From: an uncultured Methanobacteriaceae archaeon
GTDB taxonomy: Archaea > Methanobacteriota > Methanobacteria > Methanobacteriales > Methanobacteriaceae
Length of the DNA: 33,031 nucleotides
NCBI GenBank assembly: GCA_902797085.1
Contig: CADBRM010000048.1
Span: 1-33,031 of the forward strand
Reading direction: 5' to 3'
In this document: piece by piece, positions 412 through 32,779 of the stretch
Layout: each line of letters opens with the position of its first letter
Position numbering within the stretch: position 1 is the first letter of the stretch
Made by a program: the position numbers and the translations under genes
Notes under the pieces: generated by a model
The model's input: the letters and a program-made list of their open reading frames with translations, nothing else
The model's database searches: none
Told to the model about the DNA's origin: nothing

Positions 412-2748
412 ATGAATTTACTTAATAGAATTTTTGAGTATATACTTAATCATAGTAACAGTTATCTTTTTTATAAAAATCATTATGAATCATCTATTTT
501 CCAGCATAATAATGATTTGATTGAAATAAAGAAGTTAAATAATGAAATTCAGGAATTAAAAGAAGAAAATATCAGATATAAAAATCAAATTAATCAGATA
601 AACAATAATCGTAATGAAATAATAAGTGAATTAAAACAGTTTTTTGAAAAAAATATTCGCGTATTGTCTGATGAAAATATTCGGCTGATGGAAAAAATAA
701 CTCAGACTAACAGTAAAAATGACAAGATATTGGAAAAAGTTATTCACAGCAACAGTAAAAATGATAAATTATTGGAAAAATTAAACCAGAATAATGTTAA
801 AAATGATGAAGTTCTAGAAAATGTGATTCACACCAATGATGAAAATCTTAATTTTATCCAAAATAATTTTAATGGTCAACTACAATCTATTGATTTTAAT
901 TTACATGTTCTCTTAAATAATTATAATTCGTTAAAGAATGACGTGAATAAATACTTATCATATACCTCACAGAACTATAAAGACATAATTAATCAATTTT
1001 ATAAAAACAACAATGAACTTCAGTTAAAAATAGATGATATTACTACAAACAATTCTGTAATGGAAAATCAGTTGACAACAATAACTGATGAAATGAATCA
1101 GAATAAAAACATCATACTGGATAATCAAAACAGTTCTAAGGAACTAATTAATGAAAAGATTGAAAAAGAATTATCTACATTAGGGACACAACTTGAATCA
1201 AATAACAGTTTAATTCAAAAAAATTATAAAGAATTCGTAGATATTAATGATGCAGGTATGGACTTGATAAGAAAAGGTCAGGAACAAATTACTTCACTTA
1301 TCAGCAATGGCGACAAGAATGTATTATCACAGTTATCCCTCCTGTCGGATTCGAATAATATGATTATGGGCAGTATGGATAAGTTTAACGATAAGCATAA
1401 TCAGAAAAACAACGAAATTATGGAAAAACTATTAACAATACAGAATGATGAAAGGGACATATCCTTATTAAATAGTATTGCAGAGAATAATGAGAACAGA
1501 TATGATACATTAATGAGTTTCCTTAACAGGAATCTTGACTTAAATAAAATAGAAATATTTAATAGAATTTCTGATGATTTGAACAATGGAAATTATATTA
1601 ATATGGATTCCTATAAGAAAATTAAGCAAATGGGACTTTTTGATGAAATGTATTATAAAAAGCAATACGATTATAATTTGGATATTGATCCATTACTTCA
1701 TTACATATACAAGGGTTATGAAGAAAACAAAAATCCATGTGAAAAATTTGAAACGCTATATTATAAGGAATCTGATGACAACGTGTTAAAATCACCATTA
1801 AATCCTTTAGTATATTTTGTATCAAAGGGATTCTATGAAGGAAATATAAGATTTAGTCCTAAAGAGTTAAGGGTAAATCATATCAACAAATTAGAGTTGG
1901 ATGATAAAATACAATCATTTGACAACAAAGGTACTGCAACCAACAAACGGCAGCCAAGATTAATAGTTTCATTAACTTCAATACCTGAAAGAATGTATGA
2001 TATACATTATTGTTTATATTCACTATTAAAACAGGAAGTTAAACCGGATGAAATAATATTATACTTGGGTGAAGATAAGTTTCCAGAAAAAGAACTGGAT
2101 TTACCTAAAGAAGTGTTACGTCTTAAGAAACACGGATTGACTATTAAATTCTGCAAAGATATTAAATCCTACACGAAGGTTATACCTGCACTAAAGGATT
2201 ATCCTGATGATATCATTGTAACAGCAGATGATGATATTTTCTATCCTGAGAATTGGTTAAAAGTTTTGTATGAGGAACATCAGAAGTATCCTGAATTAAT
2301 CGTTGGACATAGATTAAGAAGGATGCTTTATAATAATGGTGAATTTGAAAATTATGTAAACTGGAAAATCATAGAGGATGAAATGGAAGCTTCATTTTTA
2401 AATTTCATTACAGGTGTGGGAGGAGTACTGTATCCACCACATAGTCTCTATAGTGATGTCACTGATGAAAGTATATTCAGGGAATTATGTGAAGATGCTG
2501 ATGATATTTGGTTATGGGCAATGGCAGTTTTAAACAATACTAAAATAAAAATAGCTAAGAATCATAATCCGACATTACTGACCTATGTAAATCCGGCAAG
2601 AGAACGAAATTTAATTAATGAGAAAACATTGTGGTCCCAGAATATTGGTGCAAATCAAAACAATGTACAGCTGGAAAAAATTATTGACAAGTATCCTCAA
2701 ATAATTGCAATAATCGATGAAGAGTTAGATAAGAATAAAAATAAATAA
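412..2748 (+). CDS. Coiled-coil glycosyltransferase with DDD motif (GT-A fold)
   Basis: 778 residues. Residues 1-400 are Asn/Lys/Glu-rich coiled coil. Residues about 425-480 hold two copies of an LxHYIxxG...NP module like the NPDV/HYxxxGxxEGR repeats linked to many surface-polysaccharide glycosyltransferases. Residues about 515-760 form a GT-A type domain with SLTSIPER, then TADDDIFYP (DDD near 605-607, probable metal/nucleotide-sugar site), GVGGVLYPP and ADDIWLWAMA. The C-terminal half is clearly paralogous to the minus-strand gene 15783-17063. The N-terminus (NLLNRI...YKNHY) resembles that of the small coiled-coil protein at 2752-3144. There is no signal peptide or membrane segment, so a cytoplasmic-face enzyme tethered by its coiled coil is plausible (inference). 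AGGT at 401-404 supports the ATG at 412. The stop faces a convergent gene three bases away. Donor and acceptor are unknown. Confidence 0.85.
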   Translation: MNLLNRIFEYILNHSNSYLFYKNHYESSIFQHNNDLIEIKKLNNEIQELKEENIRYKNQINQINNNRNEIISELKQFFEKNIRVLSDENIRLMEKITQTNSKNDKILEKVIHSNSKNDKLLEKLNQNNVKNDEVLENVIHTNDENLNFIQNNFNGQLQSIDFNLHVLLNNYNSLKNDVNKYLSYTSQNYKDIINQFYKNNNELQLKIDDITTNNSVMENQLTTITDEMNQNKNIILDNQNSSKELINEKIEKELSTLGTQLESNNSLIQKNYKEFVDINDAGMDLIRKGQEQITSLISNGDKNVLSQLSLLSDSNNMIMGSMDKFNDKHNQKNNEIMEKLLTIQNDERDISLLNSIAENNENRYDTLMSFLNRNLDLNKIEIFNRISDDLNNGNYINMDSYKKIKQMGLFDEMYYKKQYDYNLDIDPLLHYIYKGYEENKNPCEKFETLYYKESDDNVLKSPLNPLVYFVSKGFYEGNIRFSPKELRVNHINKLELDDKIQSFDNKGTATNKRQPRLIVSLTSIPERMYDIHYCLYSLLKQEVKPDEIILYLGEDKFPEKELDLPKEVLRLKKHGLTIKFCKDIKSYTKVIPALKDYPDDIIVTADDDIFYPENWLKVLYEEHQKYPELIVGHRLRRMLYNNGEFENYVNWKIIEDEMEASFLNFITGVGGVLYPPHSLYSDVTDESIFRELCEDADDIWLWAMAVLNNTKIKIAKNHNPTLLTYVNPARERNLINEKTLWSQNIGANQNNVQLEKIIDKYPQIIAIIDEELDKNKNK

Positions 2749-5290: not shown

Positions 5291-6259
5291 TTATCCTAAA
5301 AATTCGCATATCTTATCAGAAAGAATGTAAGTAGCATATTCCGAGAAATGATTATCATCATATTTGATATAATCCAGTTCATCTTCATCAAATAACTCAT
5401 TAAAATATATTATGACACGATTTTTTCTGTTGTGAATGTTTTTTCTATAATGGTAGTTTTCTAGTTTTCTTATCGATGTGTCATCAATTAAAAATATTAT
5501 TTTCCTGTCAGTCTTTGATTCAGAAATAATACTAATAAATTCTTCTAATGTATGAATATGGTTAATTAAATATTGATTTAAAGATATGAGTATCACTATA
5601 TCGTTATTATTTATTAAACTAATTTTTTCAGCTAATTGTTTGTTTATTTCAATTTGTTTTGTTTTATAAAATATTATGGCATCTTTATTTAGTTCTCGAC
5701 TAATTATGTTGGGATACGAATTTCCACTACGAGATACTGATGCTCCTTGGGTAATTGAATTTCCAAAAAATAATATTGGATTTTCATTATTCATATTTTT
5801 ACTTTTCTTAATAGTATTATTTCTTTCTATACCAATAAATATTTTTTGAATATGCATAAAGTTCGGTAGAAATACGCATAAATCATCATTGGGGGTGTTC
5901 GAGATGACCTCTGAAAATATGTTATTATTCCCAAAGGGTGCAAATACGGTTTTATGATAATATTTATTGTTTTTTATTTTATAAACGTCAAATCCTCTGG
6001 AATTCCAGTCAGCCAATTTAAGATTCGTCGTATTTGCTTTTAATTCAACTTTAAAAACTATTTTTTTAGAAGTAGTTGAAAATTGCATTCTATTTCCATA
6101 AATGTTATAATTAAGGGATTTTTCGTCAATTATGGAATTATTATCTATATAATCATAGTTTTCGAAAAATAAGTCTTTATTCTGAAAAACATCAATGAAC
6201 ATATATTCTTTTTCATTTACGCTCCTGATGTTTTCATCAATAGAGTTTAAATATTCCAT
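5291..6259 (-). CDS. SGNH/GDSL-family hydrolase with GxDLY-type N-domain, oxyanion Gly missing
   Basis: 322 residues. The N-terminal beta domain contains RGFDVYK (near 88-94), matching the GxDLY motif of the domain that precedes one SGNH esterase family. The hydrolase domain has FFGNSITQGAS with Ser168 as the expected nucleophile, SLNQ (Asn228) in the block III position, and DDNHFSEY (Asp301/His304) as the expected block V pair. The block II glycine seen in the paralogue at 13758-14819 aligns with Ile here, so the oxyanion hole may be altered. Such enzymes usually remove acetyl or acyl groups from sugars. No signal peptide is seen. The start overlaps the end of the upstream pseudoenzyme gene by 13 bases and has a very strong GGAGAGG (6265-6271) five bases before the ATG, so translation is probably coupled. 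Activity is uncertain. Confidence 0.8.
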   Translation of the reverse strand: MEYLNSIDENIRSVNEKEYMFIDVFQNKDLFFENYDYIDNNSIIDEKSLNYNIYGNRMQFSTTSKKIVFKVELKANTTNLKLADWNSRGFDVYKIKNNKYYHKTVFAPFGNNNIFSEVISNTPNDDLCVFLPNFMHIQKIFIGIERNNTIKKSKNMNNENPILFFGNSITQGASVSRSGNSYPNIISRELNKDAIIFYKTKQIEINKQLAEKISLINNNDIVILISLNQYLINHIHTLEEFISIISESKTDRKIIFLIDDTSIRKLENYHYRKNIHNRKNRVIIYFNELFDEDELDYIKYDDNHFSEYATYILSDKICEFLG

Positions 6260-7131
6260 TGTAACCTCTCCATATCTTCTTTGATGATTTTATAAATCAA
6301 AATATTTGCATAGTCATTGATGAAGTTATTACTGGATGTGCACCGATCAAAAAATTCAGAATCATGAAGAAAGCTCATGTCTTTTAAAATTAGTTTGTCA
6401 CCATTCAATAAAGGGTCTAATGTGTAAAATAGTTCGTATTGTTTTTCTTTGTAATATCTTGGAATAGTATACCAGCATATTACTTTATTGCAATGTTTTA
6501 GCATGTGCCTTACTGTTTTAAGAAGAAAATTATCAACAATAAAATCATCTTGCTTGTAATAATCCAGTTCCAGGATGCCATATTCATATTTGCAATCAAT
6601 CTTGTCTTCAACAAAATAATTGTCTATCTTGTCTAAAAAGTTTCTATCAAGAAAAGATAGGTGATAGGGGGTTAAATTCATTTTTCTAGCAATAATATTG
6701 GAAAACATTGTGCCGGCTGCATTGATACCCATTCCATAAGTATGGACACCACCAGCAACCAGTATTTTTTCTTGGAAATCATTAATTTGAATATCAAAAC
6801 CCTGTGGGATTTCAATATTTAATTTTGTTAAGTCACCTACAATTGGTGGATGAATAATTATTTCAACATGCTCTTCAGAAGATATTTCTTTGGATAAATC
6901 AATTGAAATAGTTTCCTGATTGGCTTTAGCATTATAATTATTCCAATGATCTTTGATTTTATAGAGAACTTGTATTTCTTCTCTGGCATTCAAGCTTATC
7001 TGAGGATAGTTTCTTGAATATTCTGTTGTGATGTTGTATTTTATATCAAATTTGGTACAATCTGTTTTGAATTTATAGGCGTATTTTTTTAAGAAACTTT
7101 CTTCTGCAGTTGATAAAAGATCAATTATCAT
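6247..7131 (-). CDS. SGNH-hydrolase-like pseudoenzyme (catalytic Ser and His lost)
   Basis: 294 residues from the ATG at 7131; a TTG at 7140 is also possible, but the paralogue at 14820-15734 aligns from MILDLLS to MIIDLLS, which favours 7131. A beta-rich N-terminal region (about 1-120) is followed by a segment, ILVAGGVHTYGMG, that occupies the place of the SGNH block I (GNSITQG) with Val where the nucleophilic Ser should be. Near the end, SSNNFINDYAN occupies the block V place with Phe instead of His. It is therefore best read as a non-catalytic SGNH-fold protein that may bind a glycan or stabilise the hydrolase encoded immediately downstream, whose start overlaps this gene by 13 bases. A TATA-like element on the minus strand near 7183-7192 could be its own promoter. 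I know no described family with certainty; the fold assignment is by motif alignment only. Confidence 0.75.
   Translation of the reverse strand: MIIDLLSTAEESFLKKYAYKFKTDCTKFDIKYNITTEYSRNYPQISLNAREEIQVLYKIKDHWNNYNAKANQETISIDLSKEISSEEHVEIIIHPPIVGDLTKLNIEIPQGFDIQINDFQEKILVAGGVHTYGMGINAAGTMFSNIIARKMNLTPYHLSFLDRNFLDKIDNYFVEDKIDCKYEYGILELDYYKQDDFIVDNFLLKTVRHMLKHCNKVICWYTIPRYYKEKQYELFYTLDPLLNGDKLILKDMSFLHDSEFFDRCTSSNNFINDYANILIYKIIKEDMERLQWNI
6265..6271 (-). promoter_or_regulatory. Strong ribosome binding site inside the upstream gene
   Basis: GGAGAGG on the minus strand lies inside the last codons of the upstream pseudoenzyme gene, five bases before the ATG at 6259. This arrangement indicates coupled, near-equimolar translation of the pair. 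Confidence 0.7.
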
Positions 7132-7221
7132 ATTATTCAAACCTATCCTTTAAAGTAATTATTATTATTTTTAATTATTTCTTGATTTATAGGTTTTGAA
7201 TATTTTTATGAAATCTCGTAA

Positions 7222-10200
7222 TTAATGATTCTTAATCCAATCATATACTCGTTTACAATTGTTTTTATCAGTATATTTGAAGAAATTATTTACTCTGTCA
7301 ACATATTTATCTTCCATTTTACAGTCATTAAGAATATATTCCTCTATTTTATTTATTAAGTCATCATGAGATTTAATTTTATCACCAAAGCCCATGCTTT
7401 CATAATCGAAGTAACTGTCTTCATGATGATAATCATCTGCATAATGGTAGTAAATGATAGGTTTTTTCAAATATGCAAAATCAAAGAATACAGATGAATA
7501 ATCCGTTATCAACAATGATCCTGTTTCAAATAATTCAGGATATGTTTCATCATAGGATATCTTAATATTGTCATCAAATTCAAATAAATCTAAATATCTA
7601 ATGTCAGTATTTGGAATTGTATATTCCAACCTTGGATGAGGTTTGAACAGTATTTCATAGTCATGTTCCTTAGCTAATTTAATTAATCGTTCATCTTTAA
7701 CAAGATTATTAAGATTTTCATAATATTCTGAGCTTGTGAATAATTTTTCACTACCTTCAAGATAGTTACGCCATGTTGGAACTATCAGGATACGTTTCTT
7801 ATTATTATCATTCTTTAGATTATCATATCTTGGGAAACCAAGTACCTGGACAATATCCGGATCGTATGCGTATCGGCCATCGGTAAATGATTCCCGTTCC
7901 TCTTCGGAAACTGTAACAATTAAGGACAAATTCTTATCATATTTTCTCAGATAGTAGGCTATGTCATCTTTTGTTACGCCATGTTGTAGGAAGTAAATAT
8001 CTGAAGTTATTAAACCGTTGTATAAAGTTCTTGTGTCTTTATTTTTATCGTCATCATAAAATGGATTTAACAGGCTTTCATCCGGATGTGAAGCAATAAT
8101 CTTATGGGCCAATAAATATAACAGTTTATGTTTGAATGTTTTGTAACCAACAACAGTACCTATTTTGGATAGTCTATTATAGTCACGTGAATCTTTTTCT
8201 AATATGAAATATTTCTTTATACCGTCACCTTGCTGATTAGCATATTTAAATAAATGTTCTGAATTATCATCAGCCTTGTTAGTTCTGTCCATGAATAAAT
8301 ATATCTGTTTTCTTAAGAATCGGGTATTAATGAAATATAAAACAGAAGCTAATCGTCTAAGATTGATGGCTTCTTTAAATCCATTTGGTTTGGATTTTTT
8401 TAGATGCTCTCTGAAAGATTGTTCTTTTTGTCTCATTTTTTTGAATCTGTAGCCTTCAAGTTCAAAAGCATTGTTTTTAAATGTTAGTAAATGTGAATCT
8501 TTCACTTTATAATTGCTTTGGTTTGAGAGACGTGCATGTTTATGGAAATTGATTTTCAAGTAACGGTAAACAATATTTTCCACGGCATCTTTAGGGTAAT
8601 ACCTTGTAAGAATTTTTACTCTACATTTTTCGTTCACTTCAAGAGGAACTTTCAAGTCAAAATTATTTTTATACTGCCAGGTATACTCTAAAAATTTCAT
8701 GTCTTTACGTGTAGGATATTCAACTCTTTGTTGAACGTATTCTCCGATAACATCCCCTTTCCAGTTTTCTTTAACGGCCACAATTTCTATATTGTCATAA
8801 CTAAAGTTACTGTTTAAGAAACCAGAAATATTCAGGAAGTCATTCTTTATTTCAACAATGTCAATCCACAGTGTATGTGATTGTAAACTGTCTATTTGCT
8901 TATCTGAAACTTTAATAACGGCATTGTTGTTTTTTATTTCTACTTCTTTATTGCCGGTTATCATATATCTGAAGAAGTCCTTGAACTGTGGATTAGTAAT
9001 AAAATTGTTGTTAAGAACAACTTTTTCATCCAATTTTCTGACAACATCTTTTAATTTAGTCCAAAATTCTTTCTTTTCTTCCTCATCGAGTAAAGACAGT
9101 TCCGGTTCTTTCATTAACCATTGTATATCATATGCAATTAAATATTGAATAAACGGTTCTACCTTTCCAGTTTTTGAACAAGAATAATCCTCCAATTTCT
9201 TGAAATATTTGTCCAATTTGTCTGTAAAGAACTCTTTTTTAAGTCTGGATCTGTCAATAGTGGAACTTTCATCGTATCGTTTACGGTAATAATACATTGC
9301 AGAGTGTACCACACCATATTTCATTTTTTCTAACAATATTTCATTAATCATTATTGAATCTTCGGAAGTGATTATATCCGTAGCAAATTGGAATTTAGTG
9401 AAAAGATCTTTCTTAAAAAATGCACTTGATGCAGATAATTGTGGGTTATTAGCATCTTTTTCCAAATCAATTATTGCATCTTTCTTGAACTTGTCGTTTA
9501 ATAAGTGATAATTTTCATTTCTTCCAAAGAATTTTATTGGTATTGCTACTAAATCAATTTCGGATTCATGTTTGTTAAAGAATTCAAGCACGTTTTCTAA
9601 TGTATTTTCTGATAGATAATCATCACTATCTAGGAAGTTAACATATTTACCTTTGACATATTTGAGTCCGTTGTTACGTGCAGTTGCTTGTCCTGAGTTT
9701 AATTGAGAGATAACTTTTATGTTTTCAGGATACTTTCTCTGATAATACAGACAGATTTCTTTAGAATTGTCTTCACTACCGTCATCGACCAAGATTAATT
9801 GTACATTTTCTTTAAAATCGAGTGTTTGGTTAATGATTGAATCAAATGTTTCATACAAGTACTCGCCCGTATTATAAATTGCAATAACAATTGAGAAATT
9901 AAATCCTTTGCCTGCTTTGAAATACTCGTCATTCAATGTAATTAAAGTATTTTCTTTAATAACCTGTTTATCTTCAGGTATTGTGGTATTATATTTTATT
10001 TTTGGATTGAATGAAATTTTATCGTTATTATCTTCATAATTTACTTTAAAGTAATAGGAATTATCCTGTGTATTATCTAAATCAATGTTAAAAATATATT
10101 TGGACGAATATTTCCAATTTATTCCCAAATAATCTTTGACAAATTTGTTTTCATCGATTGGAGTTATTATTCTATTTTCATTGTTTTCCTCAATTTGAAC

Positions 10201-12648
10201 TAGTTCGATATTTATATAATCCGTATTCAAATAAGAATCTAAACAGGTTTTAATAATTATTTTTTCTTTGTCAATATCCATATCTTCAATAAATATCTCT
10301 GAACTATTGTTGATGTTTTCTTTATTTACATAAAGATTACCTTCCTCGGAGGTTTTAATTTCCTTATTCTCATTGCCTCTTAAATATTGCAAAAATGTCT
10401 TAAGATCATTATCTAAATAGTTATGATTTACTATGTTGTTTATGTCAATCTTTAAAAGTATCTTTGATAGTCTTGACAATATGGAATCATCAATATTAAT
10501 CTCTGAAGATTTGTTGACAAATTCTTTAATATAATATAGGAGTACGTTGTCATGGTATGAGCTGTTTTTTTCACTACTTTCATAGGACTGTAAAATTTCA
10601 ATATTGCTTAAAAAGTCTTCACATTCATAGACAGTCCTGAAAGAGTAATCTTTGTCTTTAAAGGAATTGTAGGAACATGTATTTAATAAAGCCAGTTTAT
10701 TTTCTTTAATAAGAAGTTTATTCACCAACAACATGTCTTCAAGAGAACTGTCGGGGTCAAACTTCTTATTGCACTCTTTTATTATGGATGATTTAATTAA
10801 TGTGGATTGTAACAATGTTTGAATGGATTGGCTTTTTTCTTCTAAATCAATAATTGCATATCCTTTATCATTACAATCATTGAATTTGTCATTTAATTCA
10901 TATGCATCAGAACTATCGTTTATGATAAATGGAATTGAAACAAGGTTTACTTCATCATTTTCTTTAATTAAGTTATATGCTTCTTCTAGTGCATTGTCTG
11001 ACAAGAAATCTCCGCATTCTAAAAAAGTAACATATTGGGCACTGGAATTGCTTAATCCGAATGATATATAGTTTTCTTCTTTTGGTTTGGAATAAACGAA
11101 AATGTTTTCAGGATATTTTTTATGGAATTTTTCCGTGATTTCAAATAAATCTTCATCGGTATCCTCGTTAATCAAGATTAATTGTATATGTTCTGAAAAA
11201 TTTAAGCTTTGATTAACAATTGAATAAATGGATTTGGATATGTTTTCATCAGAATCTAATTGCATTATTAAAGAAAATGTAAATTCTTTAATTTCTATGC
11301 TGTTTTTATTGAATACAATTAATTTATTATCAGATATTCTTCTTTTTTCAGAGTTTTTGTAAATGATTTCAGGGTTAAACGTAGTATTTTTTTCATTATC
11401 TAAAATAAACTCTATTAAATGAGTATTATCAAACGGAGTTTCTATTTTAAATTCATGCTTAAACATCCAATTTGTAAGGAAATCATTGTCTTCTACTTTT
11501 TGAATGGAAGATGTAGTGATGTCCACAATCTTATCAGAATTATCATTATCGGATATAAATTTTATTTTTAAATCTTCCCTTTCAAAAGGAGATTCTAATA
11601 ATCCGATTATTGACAAGCAATTGTCATTAATTGTTATATCATGGATGTAAACCTTGTAATTTGTAAAAATTTCCGTGATGAACGTACTGTCTATATTAGA
11701 AATTTCATCTAAAGAAAGGAAGTTGTCATGGTTTTTTAAATAGATTAAATATTCTTTAACATTGTTTTTCAGATAATTATTCCTTATCAATACATCAAAA
11801 TCTATTTTATTTAGGACGGAATCTAATTTTTGTTCAAGTTCCTCTTTTTTTATATGGGATAAATCGTTATTGAAATATTTTTGTAGCACGTTGGTCAAAG
11901 CATATTGGATAAATTTTGGTATGTTCTTTTCATTTTCACCCAATTCAATTAAATCATTTAATAAATTCAAAGGAAAACTGGTGGAATGATTCTGTATATT
12001 TTTATCATCAACAAAAACTTTGACATTTTTTATGAAAAGATATTCTTCATTTTTTACATATAAATCATTTATTAATAGGCTGTCTTCTCCAAATACTATG
12101 GAATTATTAAAAAGGTATTCTTTCAGGGATTCCTGTTTGAAGAAATAGGATTGAATCGGTAATTGGGAATTAAATGCTTCCTTTTTAAGGTTTATTATTT
12201 TATTAATTTCATCATTTTCTTTTAAGATGAAATTTTGTTCACTAAAAGAGCTTGAAATGGCTAAAAGATTAATATTGTTATTATATATTTCAAAAAGAGG
12301 ATATACTTCTTCAAGTGTGTTTTCACTAAAATAGTCTCCACTTTCTATAAAGTTAATATATTTTCCTAAAGCCTTTTTTATCGCAATTTTTCTGTTTTCA
12401 GTTTTATCAGTAGTTTCTACTTGTAGATACTTTATGTTTTCAGGATATTGTTCTTTGTATTCTTTTATTAAAGTTATTGTATCTTCGTTCTTATAGGATA
12501 ATATTATTATTTCTATGTTGTCTTTAAAGTCTAATGTTTGGTTTATAATGGAATTCATACTGTTAATAAGCAAATCTTCATTATCAAACAGATTAATTAC
12601 AATTGAAAAAGTAAATTCTTTTTTGTTAGCATTTTTATCAATATCCAT
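7222..12648 (-). CDS. Giant glycosyltransferase: three GT2-like units plus TagF/TagB-type glycerophosphotransferase domain
   Basis: 1808 residues from the ATG at 12648 (a TTG at 12657 has its AAAGG only one base away, so ATG is preferred); numbering here counts from the TTG. GT2-like unit 1 (15-215) reads SYK and ESGD where catalytic Asp motifs should be; unit 2 (459-680) reads INED and ECGD. Only unit 3 (919-1130) is intact, with VDDGSEDNS (957-965), LDSDD (1009-1013) and TSEDS. Each unit is followed by a similar beta-rich linker (about 334-450, 785-905, 1262-1400). The C-terminus (1430-1811) is a CDP-glycerol glycerophosphotransferase-type domain with FLQHG (1556-1560), FKPHPR (1671-1676) and TDYSSVFFDFAYLKKP (1718-1733). 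Bacterial relatives polymerise glycerol or ribitol phosphate in teichoic acids. Here it suggests an archaeal polyol-phosphate or glycan-phosphate surface polymer; substrate and product are unknown. The gene stands alone between a divergent acyltransferase and the SGNH operon. Confidence 0.88.
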   Translation of the reverse strand: MDIDKNANKKEFTFSIVINLFDNEDLLINSMNSIINQTLDFKDNIEIIILSYKNEDTITLIKEYKEQYPENIKYLQVETTDKTENRKIAIKKALGKYINFIESGDYFSENTLEEVYPLFEIYNNNINLLAISSSFSEQNFILKENDEINKIINLKKEAFNSQLPIQSYFFKQESLKEYLFNNSIVFGEDSLLINDLYVKNEEYLFIKNVKVFVDDKNIQNHSTSFPLNLLNDLIELGENEKNIPKFIQYALTNVLQKYFNNDLSHIKKEELEQKLDSVLNKIDFDVLIRNNYLKNNVKEYLIYLKNHDNFLSLDEISNIDSTFITEIFTNYKVYIHDITINDNCLSIIGLLESPFEREDLKIKFISDNDNSDKIVDITTSSIQKVEDNDFLTNWMFKHEFKIETPFDNTHLIEFILDNEKNTTFNPEIIYKNSEKRRISDNKLIVFNKNSIEIKEFTFSLIMQLDSDENISKSIYSIVNQSLNFSEHIQLILINEDTDEDLFEITEKFHKKYPENIFVYSKPKEENYISFGLSNSSAQYVTFLECGDFLSDNALEEAYNLIKENDEVNLVSIPFIINDSSDAYELNDKFNDCNDKGYAIIDLEEKSQSIQTLLQSTLIKSSIIKECNKKFDPDSSLEDMLLVNKLLIKENKLALLNTCSYNSFKDKDYSFRTVYECEDFLSNIEILQSYESSEKNSSYHDNVLLYYIKEFVNKSSEINIDDSILSRLSKILLKIDINNIVNHNYLDNDLKTFLQYLRGNENKEIKTSEEGNLYVNKENINNSSEIFIEDMDIDKEKIIIKTCLDSYLNTDYINIELVQIEENNENRIITPIDENKFVKDYLGINWKYSSKYIFNIDLDNTQDNSYYFKVNYEDNNDKISFNPKIKYNTTIPEDKQVIKENTLITLNDEYFKAGKGFNFSIVIAIYNTGEYLYETFDSIINQTLDFKENVQLILVDDGSEDNSKEICLYYQRKYPENIKVISQLNSGQATARNNGLKYVKGKYVNFLDSDDYLSENTLENVLEFFNKHESEIDLVAIPIKFFGRNENYHLLNDKFKKDAIIDLEKDANNPQLSASSAFFKKDLFTKFQFATDIITSEDSIMINEILLEKMKYGVVHSAMYYYRKRYDESSTIDRSRLKKEFFTDKLDKYFKKLEDYSCSKTGKVEPFIQYLIAYDIQWLMKEPELSLLDEEEKKEFWTKLKDVVRKLDEKVVLNNNFITNPQFKDFFRYMITGNKEVEIKNNNAVIKVSDKQIDSLQSHTLWIDIVEIKNDFLNISGFLNSNFSYDNIEIVAVKENWKGDVIGEYVQQRVEYPTRKDMKFLEYTWQYKNNFDLKVPLEVNEKCRVKILTRYYPKDAVENIVYRYLKINFHKHARLSNQSNYKVKDSHLLTFKNNAFELEGYRFKKMRQKEQSFREHLKKSKPNGFKEAINLRRLASVLYFINTRFLRKQIYLFMDRTNKADDNSEHLFKYANQQGDGIKKYFILEKDSRDYNRLSKIGTVVGYKTFKHKLLYLLAHKIIASHPDESLLNPFYDDDKNKDTRTLYNGLITSDIYFLQHGVTKDDIAYYLRKYDKNLSLIVTVSEEERESFTDGRYAYDPDIVQVLGFPRYDNLKNDNNKKRILIVPTWRNYLEGSEKLFTSSEYYENLNNLVKDERLIKLAKEHDYEILFKPHPRLEYTIPNTDIRYLDLFEFDDNIKISYDETYPELFETGSLLITDYSSVFFDFAYLKKPIIYYHYADDYHHEDSYFDYESMGFGDKIKSHDDLINKIEEYILNDCKMEDKYVDRVNNFFKYTDKNNCKRVYDWIKNH

Positions 12649-12836
12649 ATCTTTCAATCCTTTAGCTTTTATTATAACTATTTTTCTATTTTAAATCATA
12701 TTTATTTTTATCTATTTTCAAATATTTTTTATAATATTCATTATTTATGAAGTTAAAAATAATATTAAACTTCTAAACGGGGATTGAATGAATTAAACTG
12801 TGGAAAATAATCATTAATAAAAATATTTTAATAGTT

Positions 12837-12914: not shown

Positions 12915-13706
12915 ATGGATATTGTTGAAAAAGATGAAAAAAATAATCAAATAATTGGTTTTAAACCCCAACTAATTAATAGTAATATTCGATTTAGAGG
13001 AACTAATAATCGTTTAATATGTGAAGAAAATGTAATATTGCGTAATTCTAGTTTAGACTTCAATGGTGATAATTCAATAATTTTCTTATCATCTAATAGA
13101 AATAATTATCTTATTAATGTTTCAATTTATAACAATTCAGTTTGTTTCCTTGATGAACATAATTATATGAATGGTGTCCTGAATCTGATACTGTCCGAGG
13201 AAAAACATATACTTATAGGTAAAGAATGTCTTTTCTCTTTTGGTATCTGGATGAGAATTGCGGATCCTCATTTAATATATGATGTGGATACAAAAAGGAG
13301 AATAAATCCTACAAAGAGCATTTTTTTAGGAGATCATATTTGGATAGGACAGGATGTATTCGTATTGAAAGGTACAAAAATAGGGTCAGGCAGTATTATT
13401 GGAGCAAAGGCAGCAGTATCCAACAAAACAATTAGTTCAAATAGTAGTTGGGCAGGAAATCCTGCAAAAGAAGTTAGACGAGGAGTATCATTTAACAGAA
13501 CATCTGTGCATAATTTTACTAAAGAAGAAACGGAGAATTCAATGAAAGACACTTCGGAAGAATGGATTTATAAAAATGAGGGAGGAATCCTTAAATTTGA
13601 TGATATTGATTATGTATTATCAAATGAGGATAATGTGGATAATAAAGTATCCTATTTGTTTGCACTACGAAATAATACAAACCACAATAGGTTCTATATA
13701 GAATAA
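12915..13706 (+). CDS. Hexapeptide-repeat (left-handed beta-helix) acyltransferase
   Basis: 263 residues. The N-terminal half is beta-rich with irregular turns (GDNSIIFLSS, NNYLINVSI); the C-terminal half holds hexapeptide-type repeats, notably FLGDHIWIGQDVFV and LKGTKIGSGSIIGAKAAVS (138-169), ending in AGNPAKEVR (180-188). ADPH (116-119) sits where O-acetyltransferases of the WbbJ/maltose-acetyltransferase type carry their catalytic His. The likely reaction is acetyl-CoA- or acyl-CoA-dependent O-acylation of a sugar or polyol precursor in the cytoplasm. A further 70-residue tail has no recognisable motif. GGGTG (12904-12908) six bases before the ATG supports the start. The gene is a lone plus-strand unit facing the second SGNH operon, so it may supply the acyl groups that the neighbouring SGNH proteins act on (inference). 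Confidence 0.85.
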   Translation: MDIVEKDEKNNQIIGFKPQLINSNIRFRGTNNRLICEENVILRNSSLDFNGDNSIIFLSSNRNNYLINVSIYNNSVCFLDEHNYMNGVLNLILSEEKHILIGKECLFSFGIWMRIADPHLIYDVDTKRRINPTKSIFLGDHIWIGQDVFVLKGTKIGSGSIIGAKAAVSNKTISSNSSWAGNPAKEVRRGVSFNRTSVHNFTKEETENSMKDTSEEWIYKNEGGILKFDDIDYVLSNEDNVDNKVSYLFALRNNTNHNRFYIE

Positions 13707-13747: not shown

Positions 13748-13765
13748 GGCTTTTAGCCTATTTTT
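13748..13765 (+). terminator. Short hairpin with T-tract between convergent genes
   Basis: GGCT-TTT-AGCC (13748-13758) is followed by TATTTTT on the plus strand, 40 bases after the acyltransferase stop. The hairpin overlaps the stop codon of the facing minus-strand hydrolase gene. The stem is only four base pairs, so the T-tract may do most of the work. Confidence 0.45.
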
Positions 13766-14819
13766 CAATCAGTTCACAAATTTTTTCTGCAACTTTATAC
13801 ATTCCGTAGTCAGTGTAGTGAGAAGCGTCTATGGCTATTAAATCATATTCATCTTCTTCAAATAAATCCTTTTGATGTAAAAGTTCAACATTTTCTCCAC
13901 GTTCAATTGCATTTGTGTAGGTTTCTTTTACAATTTCATCAAAATCATAATAATCAAACCAATGATTATATGATTCCGAAGTCATGAGAACTATTTTAGT
14001 ATTAGGGTGAAATGCTCTGATTTGTTTGTAGAACTTTTCATGAGTTGACTTGAACATTTTGGTGTTATGTGCATTTCTGGTGTAATCTATTACTATTGCA
14101 TGGCAATTAAGTTTTCCGATAAGATTTGCCATGGATTCATTTCCCAGACAACAGGATGAACATGAAAAGTTTATAACATCCCTATTTAACATTTTACTTA
14201 CATAGTTTACAAAACTGTTTCCACTTCTGGAAGCGGATGCACCTTGCGTAACAGAATTTCCATAAAATATTATTGGAGACCTGTTTTCCAATGGATAATC
14301 CACACTTTCTATTTTTGAGTCTTTCTCAAGACCTATATACAGCTCTTCAATTTTGTTATAGTTTGGTAAAAAAATGCATAATTCTGAATTTGGTTCTTCA
14401 CGTATTTCTTCAGCAAAAATATCACATCCGCTTGTTGGAGCAAATATGGTTCTATGATAATATTTATTGTCAATGATTTTATAAACGTCAAAACCGCTGG
14501 AACCCCAGTTAACCATTTTGAGGTATGCATATTTTCTTTGTAGCTTTACTTTGAATATAATCCGTGAAGAATTGGTTTTAAAACGTAGACGAACACCACA
14601 GGCCGAACTGTTGAGATGTTTCATTTCACTTACTGCACCTTCACCATATTCCACCATTTCTTCTTGCGTTTCTTGGGGAAACTTACAGAGATTTAACTTT
14701 TCGTTAGAAAAATTTAATGTTCCATAAAACAGGTGAGGATATTCAAATAAATTCAAATATTCAATATTATCCTCATTGATATTATTTAATGAATCGGTTA
14801 TATCAGTTAAATATTCCAT
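13758..14819 (-). CDS. SGNH/GDSL-family hydrolase with intact catalytic set
   Basis: 353 residues. The N-terminal beta domain includes GSSGFDVYK (about 106-114), a GxDLY-type motif. The hydrolase domain has FYGNSVTQGAS with nucleophile Ser189, a block II Gly226 in SCCLGNESM, Asn249 in DYTRNAHN, and Asp331/His334 in DASHYTDYG. All four SGNH positions are therefore present, unlike the paralogue at 5291-6259. The cluster SCSSCCLG holds four cysteines around the oxyanion-hole region, which is unusual. The expected activity is removal or transfer of an acyl group on a carbohydrate; no export signal is visible. The ATG at 14819 directly abuts the stop codon of the upstream pseudoenzyme gene, with a strong GGGGGA (14827-14832) seven bases before it, so translation is probably coupled. 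It is the last gene of the operon 17063-13758. Confidence 0.87.
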   Translation of the reverse strand: MEYLTDITDSLNNINEDNIEYLNLFEYPHLFYGTLNFSNEKLNLCKFPQETQEEMVEYGEGAVSEMKHLNSSACGVRLRFKTNSSRIIFKVKLQRKYAYLKMVNWGSSGFDVYKIIDNKYYHRTIFAPTSGCDIFAEEIREEPNSELCIFLPNYNKIEELYIGLEKDSKIESVDYPLENRSPIIFYGNSVTQGASASRSGNSFVNYVSKMLNRDVINFSCSSCCLGNESMANLIGKLNCHAIVIDYTRNAHNTKMFKSTHEKFYKQIRAFHPNTKIVLMTSESYNHWFDYYDFDEIVKETYTNAIERGENVELLHQKDLFEEDEYDLIAIDASHYTDYGMYKVAEKICELIEK

Positions 14820-15734
14820 TTAGAAGTCCCCCATCATATCAAAAAATAAACATTTTTCCAGGATAATTTCTTCAAGTTCTTTGTAAATCATCATGTTTCC
14901 AGAATCGTTTATAAAGTTTCCACTGTATGTACAGATATCATTATATTTTTTGTCAAATAAAAAGGAAAAGTCTTCTATAAACACTTTATTTGAAGATATT
15001 TCATCTAATAATCTATGTATTGCTTCTTTTTTGGATGACTTGTATTTTGGAAGACAATACCAACAGATTACAGTTTTACAGTATTTTTGCATATTTTCAA
15101 TTGTTTTTCGCAGATATTTCTTAGTTATTTCATCATTTTGATTTACATAATCAGCTTCCAAGATACCAACATCATACTTTCTAAGTTTTGGTTCCTTTTC
15201 AAAGTATTCGTTTATTTTTTCAAGGTAATTCGCATTATTGTATGTTAATTGGTCTACTGATGCTTCTAATTTACGTCCCAGCATGCTTGAAAAGGTTAAT
15301 GATGCTGTTGTACATCCAATTCCATAACTGATAAGTCCTCCGGCTACTAGAATATTTAATTCGGAGTCATTCGTTATAATTGAACCTGTGTTTCCTTCAG
15401 GTATTTCTATTTTTAGCACTGATAATTTACTGAGGACAGGACCATAAATTAATACTTCATATTCCTCATTTTCTTTAACCAAATGATGCATATATATTTG
15501 TCTGTTGTATCTTTCTGTAAATGCATCAACATTTAACCAACATATATCTTCCTCTTTTTTATATAAGACCATTATTCCCTCTTGAAGGGAGAGTCCTACA
15601 TGTGGATAGTTACCATGGATGGTGTCGGTTATCTTGAAGTTTATCCTGAAATTTTGTGCATTGGTCCTAAATTTGAATACTTGTGGGTTTGACAATGACC
15701 TGTTTTGGTTTTGTGATAATAAATCTAATATCAT
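14820..15734 (-). CDS. SGNH-hydrolase-like pseudoenzyme, second copy
   Basis: 304 residues, paralogous to the 6247-7131 protein over its full length. The N-terminal beta domain (to about 120) includes NYPHVGLSL, alike in both copies (YPQISLN). ILVAGGLISYGIG (128-140) stands where SGNH block I would be, with Leu134 replacing the nucleophilic Ser; YSGNFINDSGN (270-280) stands where block V would be, with Phe replacing His. The central ILEADYVNQND and KTVICWYCLPKY segments are conserved between the two copies, so the protein is under selection and is not simply decaying. GGAG seven bases before the ATG at 15734 supports the start. It lies between a glycosyltransferase gene 48 bases upstream and its partner hydrolase immediately downstream. 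A structural or substrate-binding partner role is inferred. Confidence 0.75.
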   Translation of the reverse strand: MILDLLSQNQNRSLSNPQVFKFRTNAQNFRINFKITDTIHGNYPHVGLSLQEGIMVLYKKEEDICWLNVDAFTERYNRQIYMHHLVKENEEYEVLIYGPVLSKLSVLKIEIPEGNTGSIITNDSELNILVAGGLISYGIGCTTASLTFSSMLGRKLEASVDQLTYNNANYLEKINEYFEKEPKLRKYDVGILEADYVNQNDEITKKYLRKTIENMQKYCKTVICWYCLPKYKSSKKEAIHRLLDEISSNKVFIEDFSFLFDKKYNDICTYSGNFINDSGNMMIYKELEEIILEKCLFFDMMGDF

Positions 15735-15782: not shown

Positions 15783-17063
15783 TTATTTCTGTTTTTTATT
15801 ATTGTTATATTCATTGATAATTTTTTCTTCAATTTCGGGGAATCTTTTAAGTAAGGATTCGAATTGACCATCATTATGTGTTTCATTGTATGACCACAGG
15901 GTGTCTTTGTTAAATAATATGTCTCTTGCTGGATTTACGTAAATAATTTCATACAGGTTATCATTCACTACCCTTGTCTTTGTATTGTTTAGCACAGCCA
16001 TGGCCCAAAACCATATGTCATCTCCTGTTGGACATACAGAATCATATATTTCTGTCTGATCAATGGTCTTGGATAATGAATTCGGTGGGAAAAGCACTCC
16101 TCCTCCTGTGGTAAAGAAATTTAAGTAACTGGCATCTTCCTGACTCTTAATTACATTCCAGTCCAGGTATTTTTTAACACGGCCGTTTTCAAATGATATT
16201 TTACGTGAACGGTGTGTAACTATGTCATCAGGATATTTAATATGGTGTTTATATAATTTTTCAAGCCAATTGTGTGGATAATATAAATCATCATCTGCCG
16301 TAACAATTATTGCTTCAGGGTATTCATTTAAACATGGGATAAGTTTCTTATATGATTTTGTTATCTCACACCATTTTATGGTTAAACCATTTTTTTTCAT
16401 CTTAATTAATTCTTCAGGCAAATCATCTTCTAAATTAGGAAATTCACTTTTTGCCAACCATAGGATAACATTATCCGGCTTTAAATTCTGGTTAAGAAGA
16501 GAATATAATGAGAATTTAACTTCATGAATTCTTTTAGGATATGACGTTAAGGAAACTATTATTGGAACATCACGTTGACCATTATTAATCCCCCATGAAT
16601 CAAATTCTTTAATCTTTTTAGTAAAATCAAATTTGTTTATTGATAATGGTTGCCACATATCCTCATTTACAGATATTATTCCTTCATCGATTCCTCTATT
16701 GACAAGGTATACTAAAGGATTTTCTGTGGTAATGTTTTCATTAAAATTTCGATAATAGGAAGTATCGAATATTTCACACGGATTAAGATTTTTTGTATGA
16801 CCTATGTAAATATAATGTAATAATGGATCTATCTCCGGTTTGAAATCGCATTCATTCAGATAGAATTCTTCGTTAAATAATTCGTATTCAAGGATTTTAT
16901 TGTATGCTTTGAAGTTATCATAGTTTTCATCTTCAATATCCTTTTGAATTTTGTTTAAAATTTCAACATTTTCTTTATTAAGTGTTTTATTCTCTTGAAA
17001 CAGAGCATTATAAAATCCTTTCAATGAACCTTTTATTCCATTATTTTTGTTGAAACTTTTCAT
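15783..17063 (-). CDS. DDD-motif glycosyltransferase with HY-G repeat module
   Basis: 426 residues. After a short helical N-terminus, two repeats (DPLLHYIYIG near 79-88 and NPLVYLVNRGIDEG near 115-128) resemble the NPDV/HYxxxGxxEGR repeats of polysaccharide glycosyltransferases. The GT-A domain (about 167-390) has SLTSYPKR, VTADDDLYYP (254-263), TGGGVLFPP (319-327) and GDDIWFWAMA (347-356). It is the close paralogue of residues 425-778 of the 412-2748 protein but lacks that protein's 400-residue coiled coil. There is no clear Shine-Dalgarno sequence before the ATG at 17063, and a TATA-like AAATTTATTT lies only about 25-35 bases upstream, so the mRNA may be leaderless. It heads the operon that continues into the second SGNH pair. 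Donor sugar unknown. Confidence 0.85.
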   Translation of the reverse strand: MKSFNKNNGIKGSLKGFYNALFQENKTLNKENVEILNKIQKDIEDENYDNFKAYNKILEYELFNEEFYLNECDFKPEIDPLLHYIYIGHTKNLNPCEIFDTSYYRNFNENITTENPLVYLVNRGIDEGIISVNEDMWQPLSINKFDFTKKIKEFDSWGINNGQRDVPIIVSLTSYPKRIHEVKFSLYSLLNQNLKPDNVILWLAKSEFPNLEDDLPEELIKMKKNGLTIKWCEITKSYKKLIPCLNEYPEAIIVTADDDLYYPHNWLEKLYKHHIKYPDDIVTHRSRKISFENGRVKKYLDWNVIKSQEDASYLNFFTTGGGVLFPPNSLSKTIDQTEIYDSVCPTGDDIWFWAMAVLNNTKTRVVNDNLYEIIYVNPARDILFNKDTLWSYNETHNDGQFESLLKRFPEIEEKIINEYNNNKKQK

Positions 17064-29497: not shown

Positions 29498-29540
29498 AAA
29501 AAAAGGATTACAAGAAGTATAAAAATTATACTCTTGTAAT
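29498..29540 (-). terminator. Hairpin plus U-tract terminator overlapping the adhesin stop codon
   Basis: On the minus strand the arms 29540-29527 and 29521-29507 pair over 14 bases with one bulge, leaving a short A/T loop, and are followed by CC and seven T. The left arm encodes the last codons of the adhesin gene (Ile-Thr-Arg-Val) and the stop codon sits at its end. Bacterial-style intrinsic hairpins of this quality are uncommon in this window. Confidence 0.7.
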
Positions 29541-32500
29541 GTCAGTTATGGTTGTTCTGTAACCTTCATATACAGTAGTTGCACCAGTTACTAAAGTAAC
29601 ATCATTAAGATTTATTTCTTTTGCTAAACTAATTCTTATGGAGATGATACCGTTGGTTACAGTATAAGTAATTGCGTTACCTAAACTGTTTTTAACAGAA
29701 ACACCATTTAATTTAACATTAACTTTGTTGGTACCTTCAACATTGTTTCCTTTAGAATCTTTTATGTTACCTTTAATTGTAATGGTTTTAGCACTACTAT
29801 CATAAACAATACTTGATGTTTGTATTGTTACAGGTGCTCTTTCAACATTGAATTTTGCATCAGTTGTTGTTTTTACACTAGTGTAGTCAGGGCTAGAGAA
29901 TACAGCGCTAACTGTGTAGTCTCTGACGGTACCGTTTTTGTAAACAGCTGCCATTCCCTTAGGTACTGTATAAGTGTAGGTTGCAACACCATTATTCACT
30001 GTATTTTTGATAGTGTTATTGTTACTATCTTTAATGGTTACACCATTTACTTTAAAGATCACTACAGCTTTTGCATTGTTTGCTGGTGCTTTTGAAGTTT
30101 TAGTATCGGTAACTTTAGCAGTGAATGTGATTGTTCCTTCTTGTTGTTGTTTTGATGGTGAAACACTAACAGTAATAGTAGCGGTTCTTAATGAAATACT
30201 TATTTTACCATCAGTTGTGGTTTTATTTTCACTGTAAGTATTAGTACCACTGTAAGAAGCACTTAAAGTTTTTGCACCGCTAAGACTGGATGTAACGTCA
30301 ATAACAGTTGTTGCTACTCCATTTTTAACTGAAACTTTAATAGGGGAACCGTTTGCTGTTACAGTTTTACCATTTATTTTGAAACATACGTTTCCACCAG
30401 TTACAGCTTTACCTTCAATATCTTTAACATTTGCTGTTAAAGTCATTGTTTCTCCGATAACACCATTAGCATCGTTTACAGTTACAACAGTAGCTGTTTT
30501 AACTACTGGAATGGTGTCTTTGAATACGTTGTTAGAAATTTTTGCGTAATTTCCATCATTGTATATTGTTGCAGAGTATTTTGAAGTAGAAGCGTTAATG
30601 TTGTTTGAAATAGTTACTCCAGTACCATAATTTCTTATGGCATCTCCGGTTGTACCTGCAGTGTTTTGTGTGAATACATTGTTTAATATATTCATGTTGT
30701 TTCCACGAGTGAAAATTGCTCCACCAATGCTTGATGCACTGTTTTTAGTGAAGTTGTTGTAAGTGATATCAGATGATGCTAAATCACCAGCAATTGCTCC
30801 ACCAGATGCATTAGCACTGTTGGAAGTGAAATCGTTTTTGGTGATGGTAATTTTTGTACCAGCATAATTGATAATTGCTCCACCATTGGATTTTGCAGAG
30901 TTTCCACTAATAACATTATTTGAAATTGTTGAATCAGAAGATTGGTAGTTTGCTATAGCTCCACCAGCATTTGATGCAACGTTGTTTGAAATAGTGTTAT
31001 CTGATATGGTTGTTTTTTCAACTTTATTGTTAGCTATTGCTCCACCAAGTTGTCCAGCAACATTGTTTAATATTTTGTTATTTTTAATAGTTGTACCGGT
31101 AGTTCCATCGTTGTAAATACCAGCACCACCGTTTGTTGCTTTGTTGTTGGAAATTTCGTTTCCTGTTACGGTCATTGAATTTCCATTGATGTATAATCCA
31201 GCACCTGAACGACTTGCAGTATTTTCAATGATTTTGTTATTACTTACCATAGAATTGCTACCTCTGATGTATATAGCTCCACCATCGTTGGTAACAGTAT
31301 TTTTAGTAAATTCGTTGTTTGTTACATTGAAATTTTTACCTTCATCGTAAACAGCACCACCAGTTCTTGATGCACTGTTTTCGGTGAATTTGTTTCCATC
31401 AATTAAAACATCGGAACCTTGTGTGAAGATAGCTCCAGCAGTTCTTCCTGCAGTGTTGCTTGTGAAATTATTATTTTTTACAACTGTGTTAGTTGATGTG
31501 GAATATATAACGATTGATCCTCCATCACTGTTTGCTCCTTTAGCAGAGTTCTTTTGGAAGTCATTGTTAGATATTTCAGTTTTTTTATCATTGTTGTTTG
31601 TAATAGCTCCTCCACCACCAGTTGAAACACTGTTTTCGGTGAATTTGTTATTACTAATAACAGTTCCAGTTGTTCTGATGTTTAGTATTGCTCCAGCATC
31701 CACTGCACTGTTTTGTGTAAATGTGTTTCCATCAATTTTTGCGTTGGTACCTTCAACATAAACTGCACCTGCAGATGCTGTTGCAGTATTTTTAGTAAAG
31801 GTATCTTTTGTTACAGTCAAACCGTTTGCAGTATTATATATTGCTCCACCAGTTTGAGCTGAGTTTTGTGTGTATTTGTTGTTTGTTGATGTTAAGCTTG
31901 AACCTTGGTTGTATATTGCTCCACCAAATACTTTTGCTTTGTTGGTAGTAAATTCGCTGTTGGTTACTTTTACTGTAGAGTCAACAGCATATATTGCTCC
32001 ACCAGATGCACTAGCTGCATTGTTGTTAGTGAATTTGGAATTAGAAATATCTACATTACTTTTACGAACATATACTGCTCCACCGTAAGCTGCTTGATTG
32101 TCTTTAAATGTACAATCAGATATTACTAAGTTTCCACCATCTACTTTACAAATTGCTCCTCCAACATCACTTCCGGAGGTTACACCATTTGTAAATATGA
32201 TGTTTTTAAGATTTAAGTTAACATTTGCACCTACGTACATAATTCTTGAACCTTTGTTTCTGTCAATGGTAACTGTTTTACCATCTTGTCCAGAAATAGA
32301 ATATGTACCTGCTGTTGTTAAACCGAGATAATTAGATAATTTATATGTCCCGGCAGCAAGAATGAGGTTTCCACCTTTATCACTTTGGATTTTACTTATT
32401 CCTTTAACAATATCAAAAGGACTGTCTTGAGTACCTTGATTTGAAGAGGAACCAGTAGTAGAGACATAGTAAGTTCCAGCAGATTTTACATCCTTACTTG

Positions 32501-32705
32501 TTGTTTTGTTTAAATTGTCTCCTTTTATGTCAGTTTGAACAGAATTTGTTTCTGTGTCAACCGTATTTTGAATTTCAGTTGTGTCAATAGTTTGAGCATC
32601 TGAAGCAGCACTAACATCATTGTCAGCAGCTGAAACTGCAGATACTGTGAGACAAAGCACTATTAAACTAACAAAAAGAAGTAACATGCTCTTTTTATTT
32701 ATCAT
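29526..32705 (-). CDS. Secreted adhesin-like protein: beta-helix repeats plus Ig-like domains
   Basis: 1059 residues from the ATG at 32705, preceded by GGAGA at eight bases; the TTG at 32720 overlaps that site. MINKKSM and a hydrophobic stretch ending VSAVSA-AD form a signal peptide. After a short Asp/Thr-rich linker, residues about 60-735 contain about 20 rungs of a right-handed beta-helix, each near 25-28 residues and marked by GGAIY followed by SNNxFTxNSA. Residues about 735-1059 hold three Ig-like beta domains (GETMTLTANVKD, GTITFTAKVTD, KTITIKGNIKD). This matches the adhesin-like proteins abundant in gut Methanobacteriales. No C-terminal membrane helix or pseudomurein-binding repeat is visible, so its anchoring is unclear. 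The many plus-strand reading frames within it are repeat shadows. The gene is transcribed divergently from the SRP RNA. Confidence 0.93.
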   Translation of the reverse strand: MINKKSMLLLFVSLIVLCLTVSAVSAADNDVSAASDAQTIDTTEIQNTVDTETNSVQTDIKGDNLNKTTSKDVKSAGTYYVSTTGSSSNQGTQDSPFDIVKGISKIQSDKGGNLILAAGTYKLSNYLGLTTAGTYSISGQDGKTVTIDRNKGSRIMYVGANVNLNLKNIIFTNGVTSGSDVGGAICKVDGGNLVISDCTFKDNQAAYGGAVYVRKSNVDISNSKFTNNNAASASGGAIYAVDSTVKVTNSEFTTNKAKVFGGAIYNQGSSLTSTNNKYTQNSAQTGGAIYNTANGLTVTKDTFTKNTATASAGAVYVEGTNAKIDGNTFTQNSAVDAGAILNIRTTGTVISNNKFTENSVSTGGGGAITNNNDKKTEISNNDFQKNSAKGANSDGGSIVIYSTSTNTVVKNNNFTSNTAGRTAGAIFTQGSDVLIDGNKFTENSASRTGGAVYDEGKNFNVTNNEFTKNTVTNDGGAIYIRGSNSMVSNNKIIENTASRSGAGLYINGNSMTVTGNEISNNKATNGGAGIYNDGTTGTTIKNNKILNNVAGQLGGAIANNKVEKTTISDNTISNNVASNAGGAIANYQSSDSTISNNVISGNSAKSNGGAIINYAGTKITITKNDFTSNSANASGGAIAGDLASSDITYNNFTKNSASSIGGAIFTRGNNMNILNNVFTQNTAGTTGDAIRNYGTGVTISNNINASTSKYSATIYNDGNYAKISNNVFKDTIPVVKTATVVTVNDANGVIGETMTLTANVKDIEGKAVTGGNVCFKINGKTVTANGSPIKVSVKNGVATTVIDVTSSLSGAKTLSASYSGTNTYSENKTTTDGKISISLRTATITVSVSPSKQQQEGTITFTAKVTDTKTSKAPANNAKAVVIFKVNGVTIKDSNNNTIKNTVNNGVATYTYTVPKGMAAVYKNGTVRDYTVSAVFSSPDYTSVKTTTDAKFNVERAPVTIQTSSIVYDSSAKTITIKGNIKDSKGNNVEGTNKVNVKLNGVSVKNSLGNAITYTVTNGIISIRISLAKEINLNDVTLVTGATTVYEGYRTTITDITRV
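30600..32150 (-). repeat. About 20 beta-helix rung repeats coding GGAIY...NNxFTxNSA
   Basis: Degenerate repeats of about 75-84 bp encode the beta-helix rungs. The DNA copies are similar enough to recombine, a known source of length variation in such surface proteins. Boundaries are approximate. Confidence 0.75.
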
Positions 32706-32779
32706 GATAAATGTCTCCAAGAATAATTTGATAATTATCCATATTTCTATTTATGATGTAAATAATAATAAAGTTAACT

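Follow-up and report, generated by a model that had tools for sequence, protein, structure and literature searches.

Our analysis has shown that two copies of an unusual gene pair, in which a hydrolase of the GxDLY-SGNH type lies beside a paralogue that has lost its catalytic residues, are present in a 33,031-nucleotide stretch of DNA from an uncultured Methanobacteriaceae archaeon. This stretch, referred to here as the window, is the entire contig C48 of a 1.77-Mb assembly. Its closest named relatives belong to Methanosphaera, which is thus its most likely genus. The first-pass annotation had placed a second pseudoenzyme/hydrolase pair, in the same order as the first, at 13758-15734; its coordinates proved exact, with pair 1 at 5291-7140 (Table 1). 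The dead gene is clearly useful and probably serves as a helper in building surface sugars. We favor, with a probability of roughly 0.55, the reading that its product and the hydrolase are co-translated as a prozyme-like enzyme/pseudoenzyme pair that acts as a cytosolic heteromer in surface-glycan assembly.

Table 1. Features of the window that bear on the two gene pairs
Feature	Coordinates	Strand	Description
P0002	14820..15734	-	Pair 2 pseudoenzyme half, 304 aa; GxDLY beta-sandwich and SGNH-fold domain without catalytic residues
P0001	13758..14819	-	Pair 2 hydrolase half, 353 aa; GxDLY and Lipase_GDSL_3
Pair 2 junction	14817..14822	-	TAA stop followed immediately by the ATG start of the hydrolase
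L134 codon, P0002	15333..15335	-	Replaces the nucleophile Ser; GGLISYG instead of GNSVTQG
F274 codon, P0002	14913..14915	-	Replaces the catalytic His; SGNF instead of DASH
S189 codon, P0001	14253..14255	-	Predicted nucleophile (GNSVTQG)
H334 codon, P0001	13818..13820	-	Predicted catalytic His (DASH)
P0004	6247..7140	-	Pair 1 pseudoenzyme half, 297 aa from TTG; the family start is an ATG at 7131
P0003	5291..6259	-	Pair 1 hydrolase half, 322 aa
Pair 1 overlap	6247..6259	-	13 nt; pseudoenzyme stop within the MEYL start of the hydrolase
GT2/glycerophosphotransferase protein	7222..12657	-	1811 aa; three GT2 domains and CDP-glycerol glycerophosphotransferase; between the pairs
Acyltransferase-like gene	12915..13706	+	Hexapeptide-repeat type, convergent with pair 2; sub-threshold Pfam Hexapep match
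DDD-motif glycosyltransferase	15783..17063	-	Immediately upstream of pair 2; order kept in L075 and L078
Second DDD-type glycosyltransferase	412..2748	+	Beyond pair 1

The hydrolase half of pair 2 matches both domains of the GxDLY (PF14607) plus Lipase_GDSL_3 (PF14606) esterases, with 92.8 and 62.1 bits, respectively, against a cut-off of 27. All of S189, G226, N249, D331 and H334 (blocks I, II, III and V) are present, and its motifs follow the order S-G-N-H. The pair 1 hydrolase also exceeds the Pfam cut-off for both domains and retains S, N, D and H; however, Ile occupies its block II Gly position, and this hydrolase is probably catalytically eroded itself. The dead half is less easily placed. 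P0002 scored 25.1 bits against GxDLY, where the cut-off is 27, and a sub-threshold match to GxDLY is the only one in Pfam for P0002 and P0004 alike. BLASTP between the dead and the hydrolase halves gave no significant similarity, and homology was thus shown via profile and structure. Profile-profile alignment (hhalign) of 19 dead halves with 21 hydrolase halves gave a probability of 95.7% and an E of 8.8e-9 over 289 columns. AlphaFold2 modeled P0002 with pLDDT 88 and pTM 0.86. The top PDB match of this model in Foldseek was 4lhs, which is a GDSL-like lipase from Bacteroides ovatus (TM 0.70, E 1.5e-16, 15% identity); CE2 carbohydrate esterases and the acyltransferase SsfX3 ranked next. The same 4lhs was the sole PDB sequence match for the profiles of both halves. 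Membership of the dead half in the GxDLY-SGNH fold is therefore weak by sequence alone but firm by profile-profile comparison combined with the predicted structure, and P0002 shares ancestry and the two-domain fold with the GxDLY plus Lipase_GDSL_3 SGNH hydrolases.

In the profile-profile alignment, S189, N249, D331 and H334 of P0001 align to L134, Q199, S271 and F274 of P0002. Across the 19 dead halves, the Ser position is occupied by L, F, V, T, I, S or P, the Asp position by S, N or G and the His position by F or Y only, while the Asn position is Q in 18 (Q199 in P0002). His or Asp was found at the positions equivalent to S271 and F274 in none of the 19. The first-pass annotation had described the motif losses of the two window pairs as the same; they are equivalent, but the letters differ, with GGLISYG and SGNF in pair 2 and GGVHTYG and SNNF in pair 1. 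Six invariant residues (G133, E193, W225, C268, N276 and N280) are specific to the dead half and lie at or near the former active-site motifs. Since the adjacent motifs are conserved and include such residues, the former active-site region has been remade and constrained rather than merely lost, and it may bind a ligand. With its fold kept, its catalytic residues gone and purifying selection acting on it, P0002 is best described as a pseudoenzyme that is predicted to be inactive.

Purifying selection on the dead copies is strong. Between the two closest of them (G054a and G072a; 308 codons), we counted 14 synonymous changes and no nonsynonymous one, a pattern for which we calculate from site counts a neutral chance of about 1e-10. 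For the next closest pair, G054b/G072b, dN/dS was 0.063 in the dead copies and 0.071 in their hydrolases. Tree-wide GY omega ranged from 0.018 to 0.065 for the dead halves and from 0.014 to 0.020 for the hydrolases, values that are rough because synonymous sites are saturated in the other pairs. A recent duplicate, G054c and the G054 fusion, is looser (dN/dS 0.27). The notion that the dead copies are simply decaying duplicates could appeal to the lost triad, but open frames in 20/20 copies and dN/dS values far below 1 refute it, and we give it practically no credence. Neutral evolution is likewise rejected, and the earlier proposal of a selected function for the dead partner holds.

Pairs of this kind recur. 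The pseudoenzymes of pairs 1 and 2 are 38% identical over 290 aa (E 7e-65) and the hydrolases share 34% identity over 351 aa (E 7e-68). Contig C45 of the same genome carries a third pair, and about 17 more were found in related genomes, which excludes chance as the source of the recurrence. In a joint tree, each half forms one side of a 100/100 branch, and the dead half thus most simply arose once. Independent origins, which the first-pass annotation had named as an outcome to look for, did not appear; the dead copies form a single clade and the trees of the two halves are congruent. Separate trees share 8/16 splits (permutation mean 0.3, maximum 3 in 2000) with no well-supported conflict. Patristic distances of the two halves correlate (Mantel r 0.55, 0/2000 permutations), and branch lengths on the shared tree covary with rho 0.87 over 35 branches, of which shared time explains part. 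The halves have co-diverged, which linkage by itself would lead one to expect. Pair 1, pair 2 and the C45 pair belong to three different clades, each with other species; they are therefore old paralogues that were duplicated as units, and a recent duplication of the window pairs was considered and rejected.

Pairing of the two genes is close to invariable. In 19 of the 20 Methanobacteriaceae dead copies, a hydrolase gene follows immediately downstream in the same orientation, at a spacing of -26 to +4 nt. The remaining copy, P0006, carries a fused DUF6270 domain and sits just behind a hydrolase, so that none of the 20 copies was found away from one. An overlap of exactly 13 nt occurs in 9/19 pairs, several of which carry a GAGGT-like ribosome site within the dead gene. 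Stop and start codons had been described as abutting in both window pairs; this is true of pair 2, but pair 1 has the 13-nt overlap, in which a KWNI-type end is read across a MEYL-type start. Gene overlap and obligate pairing suggest a fixed stoichiometry of the two proteins. GxDLY (PF14607) genes were found in 11/139 family genomes and are paired apart from two exceptions, a copy at a contig end (G060) and a tandem extra hydrolase (G087); given the nature of these exceptions, a hydrolase without a dead partner was not demonstrated in the 139 genomes. Searches of 120-152 family and phylum genomes limited the dead half to two genera. A one-motif scan of genome contigs, which recovered just part of the known copies, likewise returned Methanosphaera and Methanobrevibacter only, and no dead half was detected when phages, plasmids and viral contigs were searched. 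At one locus (L077:12523-16502, G069), two pairs lie tail to tail inside 4 kb. The DUF6270-fused copy (582 aa, with the dead half behind DUF6270; L019:1495-3243, G054:C1, about 710422-712170) has an unfused neighbor to which it is about 97% alike. In addition, DUF6270 was seen as a stand-alone gene upstream of a pair (L083:12142-12828) and fused to GT2 domains just upstream of another (L086:10995-14651).

The pairs are found among genes for building glycans. Genes of the GT2, DDD-type glycosyltransferase, CDP-glycerol glycerophosphotransferase or LicD type lie within two genes of 19/20 dead copies. The first-pass annotation had stressed that the linked genes differ between the two window pairs, which is overstated, as glycosyltransferase or LicD genes accompany nearly all copies and a DDD glycosyltransferase is also found beyond pair 1. 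Genes resembling choline kinase and cytidylyltransferase are close to the third pair. At L074:4086-9231 and L081:5507-7282, choline-kinase/nucleotidyltransferase, IspD-type cytidylyltransferase and LicD genes were observed near pairs and suggest a surface polymer decorated with phosphocholine or polyol-phosphate; TGT (archaeosine) and PyrI genes flank the choline-kinase/LicD locus in several species. The window also encodes a repetitive secreted adhesin-like protein of 1064 aa (29526-32720), and beta-helix proteins resembling it are encoded immediately upstream of a pair in L084. Previous work has described many laterally acquired, clustered glycosyltransferases in M. stadtmanae (PMC3445992) and teichoic-acid-type genes in Methanobrevibacter ruminantium (PMC2812497).

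The pair had also been described as a movable module. The pairs do lie in different neighborhoods, but those of the window are old syntenic paralogues. Another Methanosphaera species (G051, locus L075) has the DDD-glycosyltransferase, pair 2, the long GT2/glycerophosphotransferase and pair 1 in the same order; its counterpart of the 1811-aa protein is shorter (1458 aa). The DDD-glycosyltransferase and pair 2 also keep their order in G069 (L078), beside valS, aroA and nth. The window pairs have thus kept their positions for no less time than the G051 and G069 species have existed, and "movable" holds just on a longer timescale. No transposase, recombinase or terminal repeat was seen attached to the pairs among the neighbors scanned. 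G072 and G054 have in common a 10.6-kb block that includes a pair and is 95.5% identical (L080:1-10608 and L082:9290-19901); another block shared by these genomes shows 86% identity, and recent transfer or uneven divergence could be responsible.

Loss of catalytic residues is not confined to the dead half. The full S-G-N-D-H set is kept in 9/21 hydrolase halves, with both genera represented; one of the 21 is cut by a contig end and can be scored only at Ser. In other hydrolase halves, the block II Gly, the Asn or triad residues are missing, and in G087x none of the five is left. In the G051 orthologue of pair 1, Thr replaces the Ser of the hydrolase. Eroded hydrolase halves were seen at L015, L016, L018, L013, L030 and L037, with losses that include D/H to N/Y, S to T, S to A, D/H to E/Q and all five, and both halves of such a pair then look inactive. 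Since about half of the partners lack at least one canonical residue, hydrolysis cannot be assumed for every pair, and judging from these residues, active esterase cannot be the function that all pairs have in common.

Under the heteromer reading that we favor, an ancestral GxDLY/GDSL_3 esterase would have been duplicated in tandem; one copy would have lost its catalytic residues once, and both would since have been kept and duplicated together. The two proteins, in which no signal peptide was seen by eye, would form a heteromer in the cytosol. The dead subunit may bind or position the glycan, or activate its partner as a prozyme does, while the hydrolase subunit may remove or transfer an O-acyl group on surface-polymer precursors. 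The polymer itself would be teichoic-acid-like or phosphorylated and built by the neighboring GT2, CDP-glycerol-transferase and LicD genes. Pair 2, read through as a single fused chain, gave an AlphaFold2 model with a pTM of 0.65 (four paired rows, without an interface score or control), where our own rough estimate for two unrelated halves is about 0.55; this mild excess leans toward an interface but is not decisive.

Other roles for the dead half can be envisioned. It might be an independent, non-catalytic, lectin-like glycan binder that is co-transcribed with the hydrolase and works in the same pathway without forming a complex with it. CE2-type folds can bind glycan non-catalytically, to go by the title of 2w9x, the motifs of the former pocket are conserved, and the copy fused to DUF6270 rather than to a hydrolase suggests that the domain can serve other partners. 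However, this fused copy is a recent duplicate that still lies directly behind a hydrolase, no dead gene is found away from one, and the 13-nt overlap, together with a gene order that never varies, points to a fixed stoichiometry; we consider independent binding possible but unlikely. A related and similarly tentative idea is that the dead subunit is a general glycan-recognition adaptor that docks SGNH-like or glycosyltransferase partners, and that some pairs, such as those of the C45 clade, are doubly non-catalytic binding or patterning heteromers.

It is also conceivable that the dead half is a repurposed enzyme with another chemistry, based on Gln199, Cys268, Glu193 and Asn276. Polar residues specific to the dead half and two cysteines are indeed strongly conserved at or near the old active-site motifs, but the nucleophile position varies freely, the His position is always F or Y, one of the cysteines (C141) is not invariant and no known SGNH chemistry fits, which makes this reading quite doubtful. 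Slightly less probable still is a pair in which neither half is hydrolytic, the two proteins acting as a binding heteromer or assembly platform and the intact triads representing retained ancestral activity. Hydrolase residues have been lost in several clades, and selection on eroded hydrolase copies is still strong (omega about 0.07 for G054b/G072b). On the other hand, the complete residue set in members of both genera indicates that activity is ancestral and common, and eroded partners with a surviving upstream dead gene all occur in genomes that have other pairs.

One precedent for such an arrangement is the trypanosome AdoMetDC/prozyme system, in which a dead paralogue activates the active one by heteromer formation. 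A dead paralogue is kept beside an active one in both cases, and the obligate genetic pairing and co-divergence by which a prozyme-like pair would be recognized were both found here; the folds are unrelated, however, and in our case the heteromer is predicted. CE2 enzymes and SsfX3 have the same beta-sandwich plus SGNH architecture as the dead half, with a TM-score of about 0.6 and about 10% identity, but they are active enzymes, and we know of no dead partner for either. The Bacteroides GxDLY relative (L090) is a single gene in a polysaccharide-degradation locus, whereas the archaeal gene is paired with a dead paralogue in a glycan-building setting. Alginate O-acetylation involves two SGNH-like proteins, AlgJ and AlgX, that are encoded in one polysaccharide cluster and have distinct roles, and the alpha1/alpha2 form of PAF-acetylhydrolase Ib is an SGNH-fold catalytic heterodimer of two paralogues (both in PMC9487903, the latter as cited there). 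Unlike the archaeal pair, AlgJ and AlgX both have a triad, are periplasmic and show the circularly permuted order H-S-G-N rather than the S-G-N-H of P0001. PAF-acetylhydrolase Ib alpha1/alpha2 is not known as a pair of an active and a dead subunit. Our search of the literature on SGNH pseudoenzyme pairs found nothing close, and among the papers searched none was found to name GxDLY or DUF6270.

Taken together, these pairs provide a clear and repeated archaeal case of a pseudoenzyme kept by selection beside its active paralogue. As they span partners from intact to heavily eroded, the role of a dead paralogue can be tested across paralogues of one genome. The pairs also hint that gut methanogens edit O-acyl groups on their surface polymers, an unstudied process that would be a host-facing trait.
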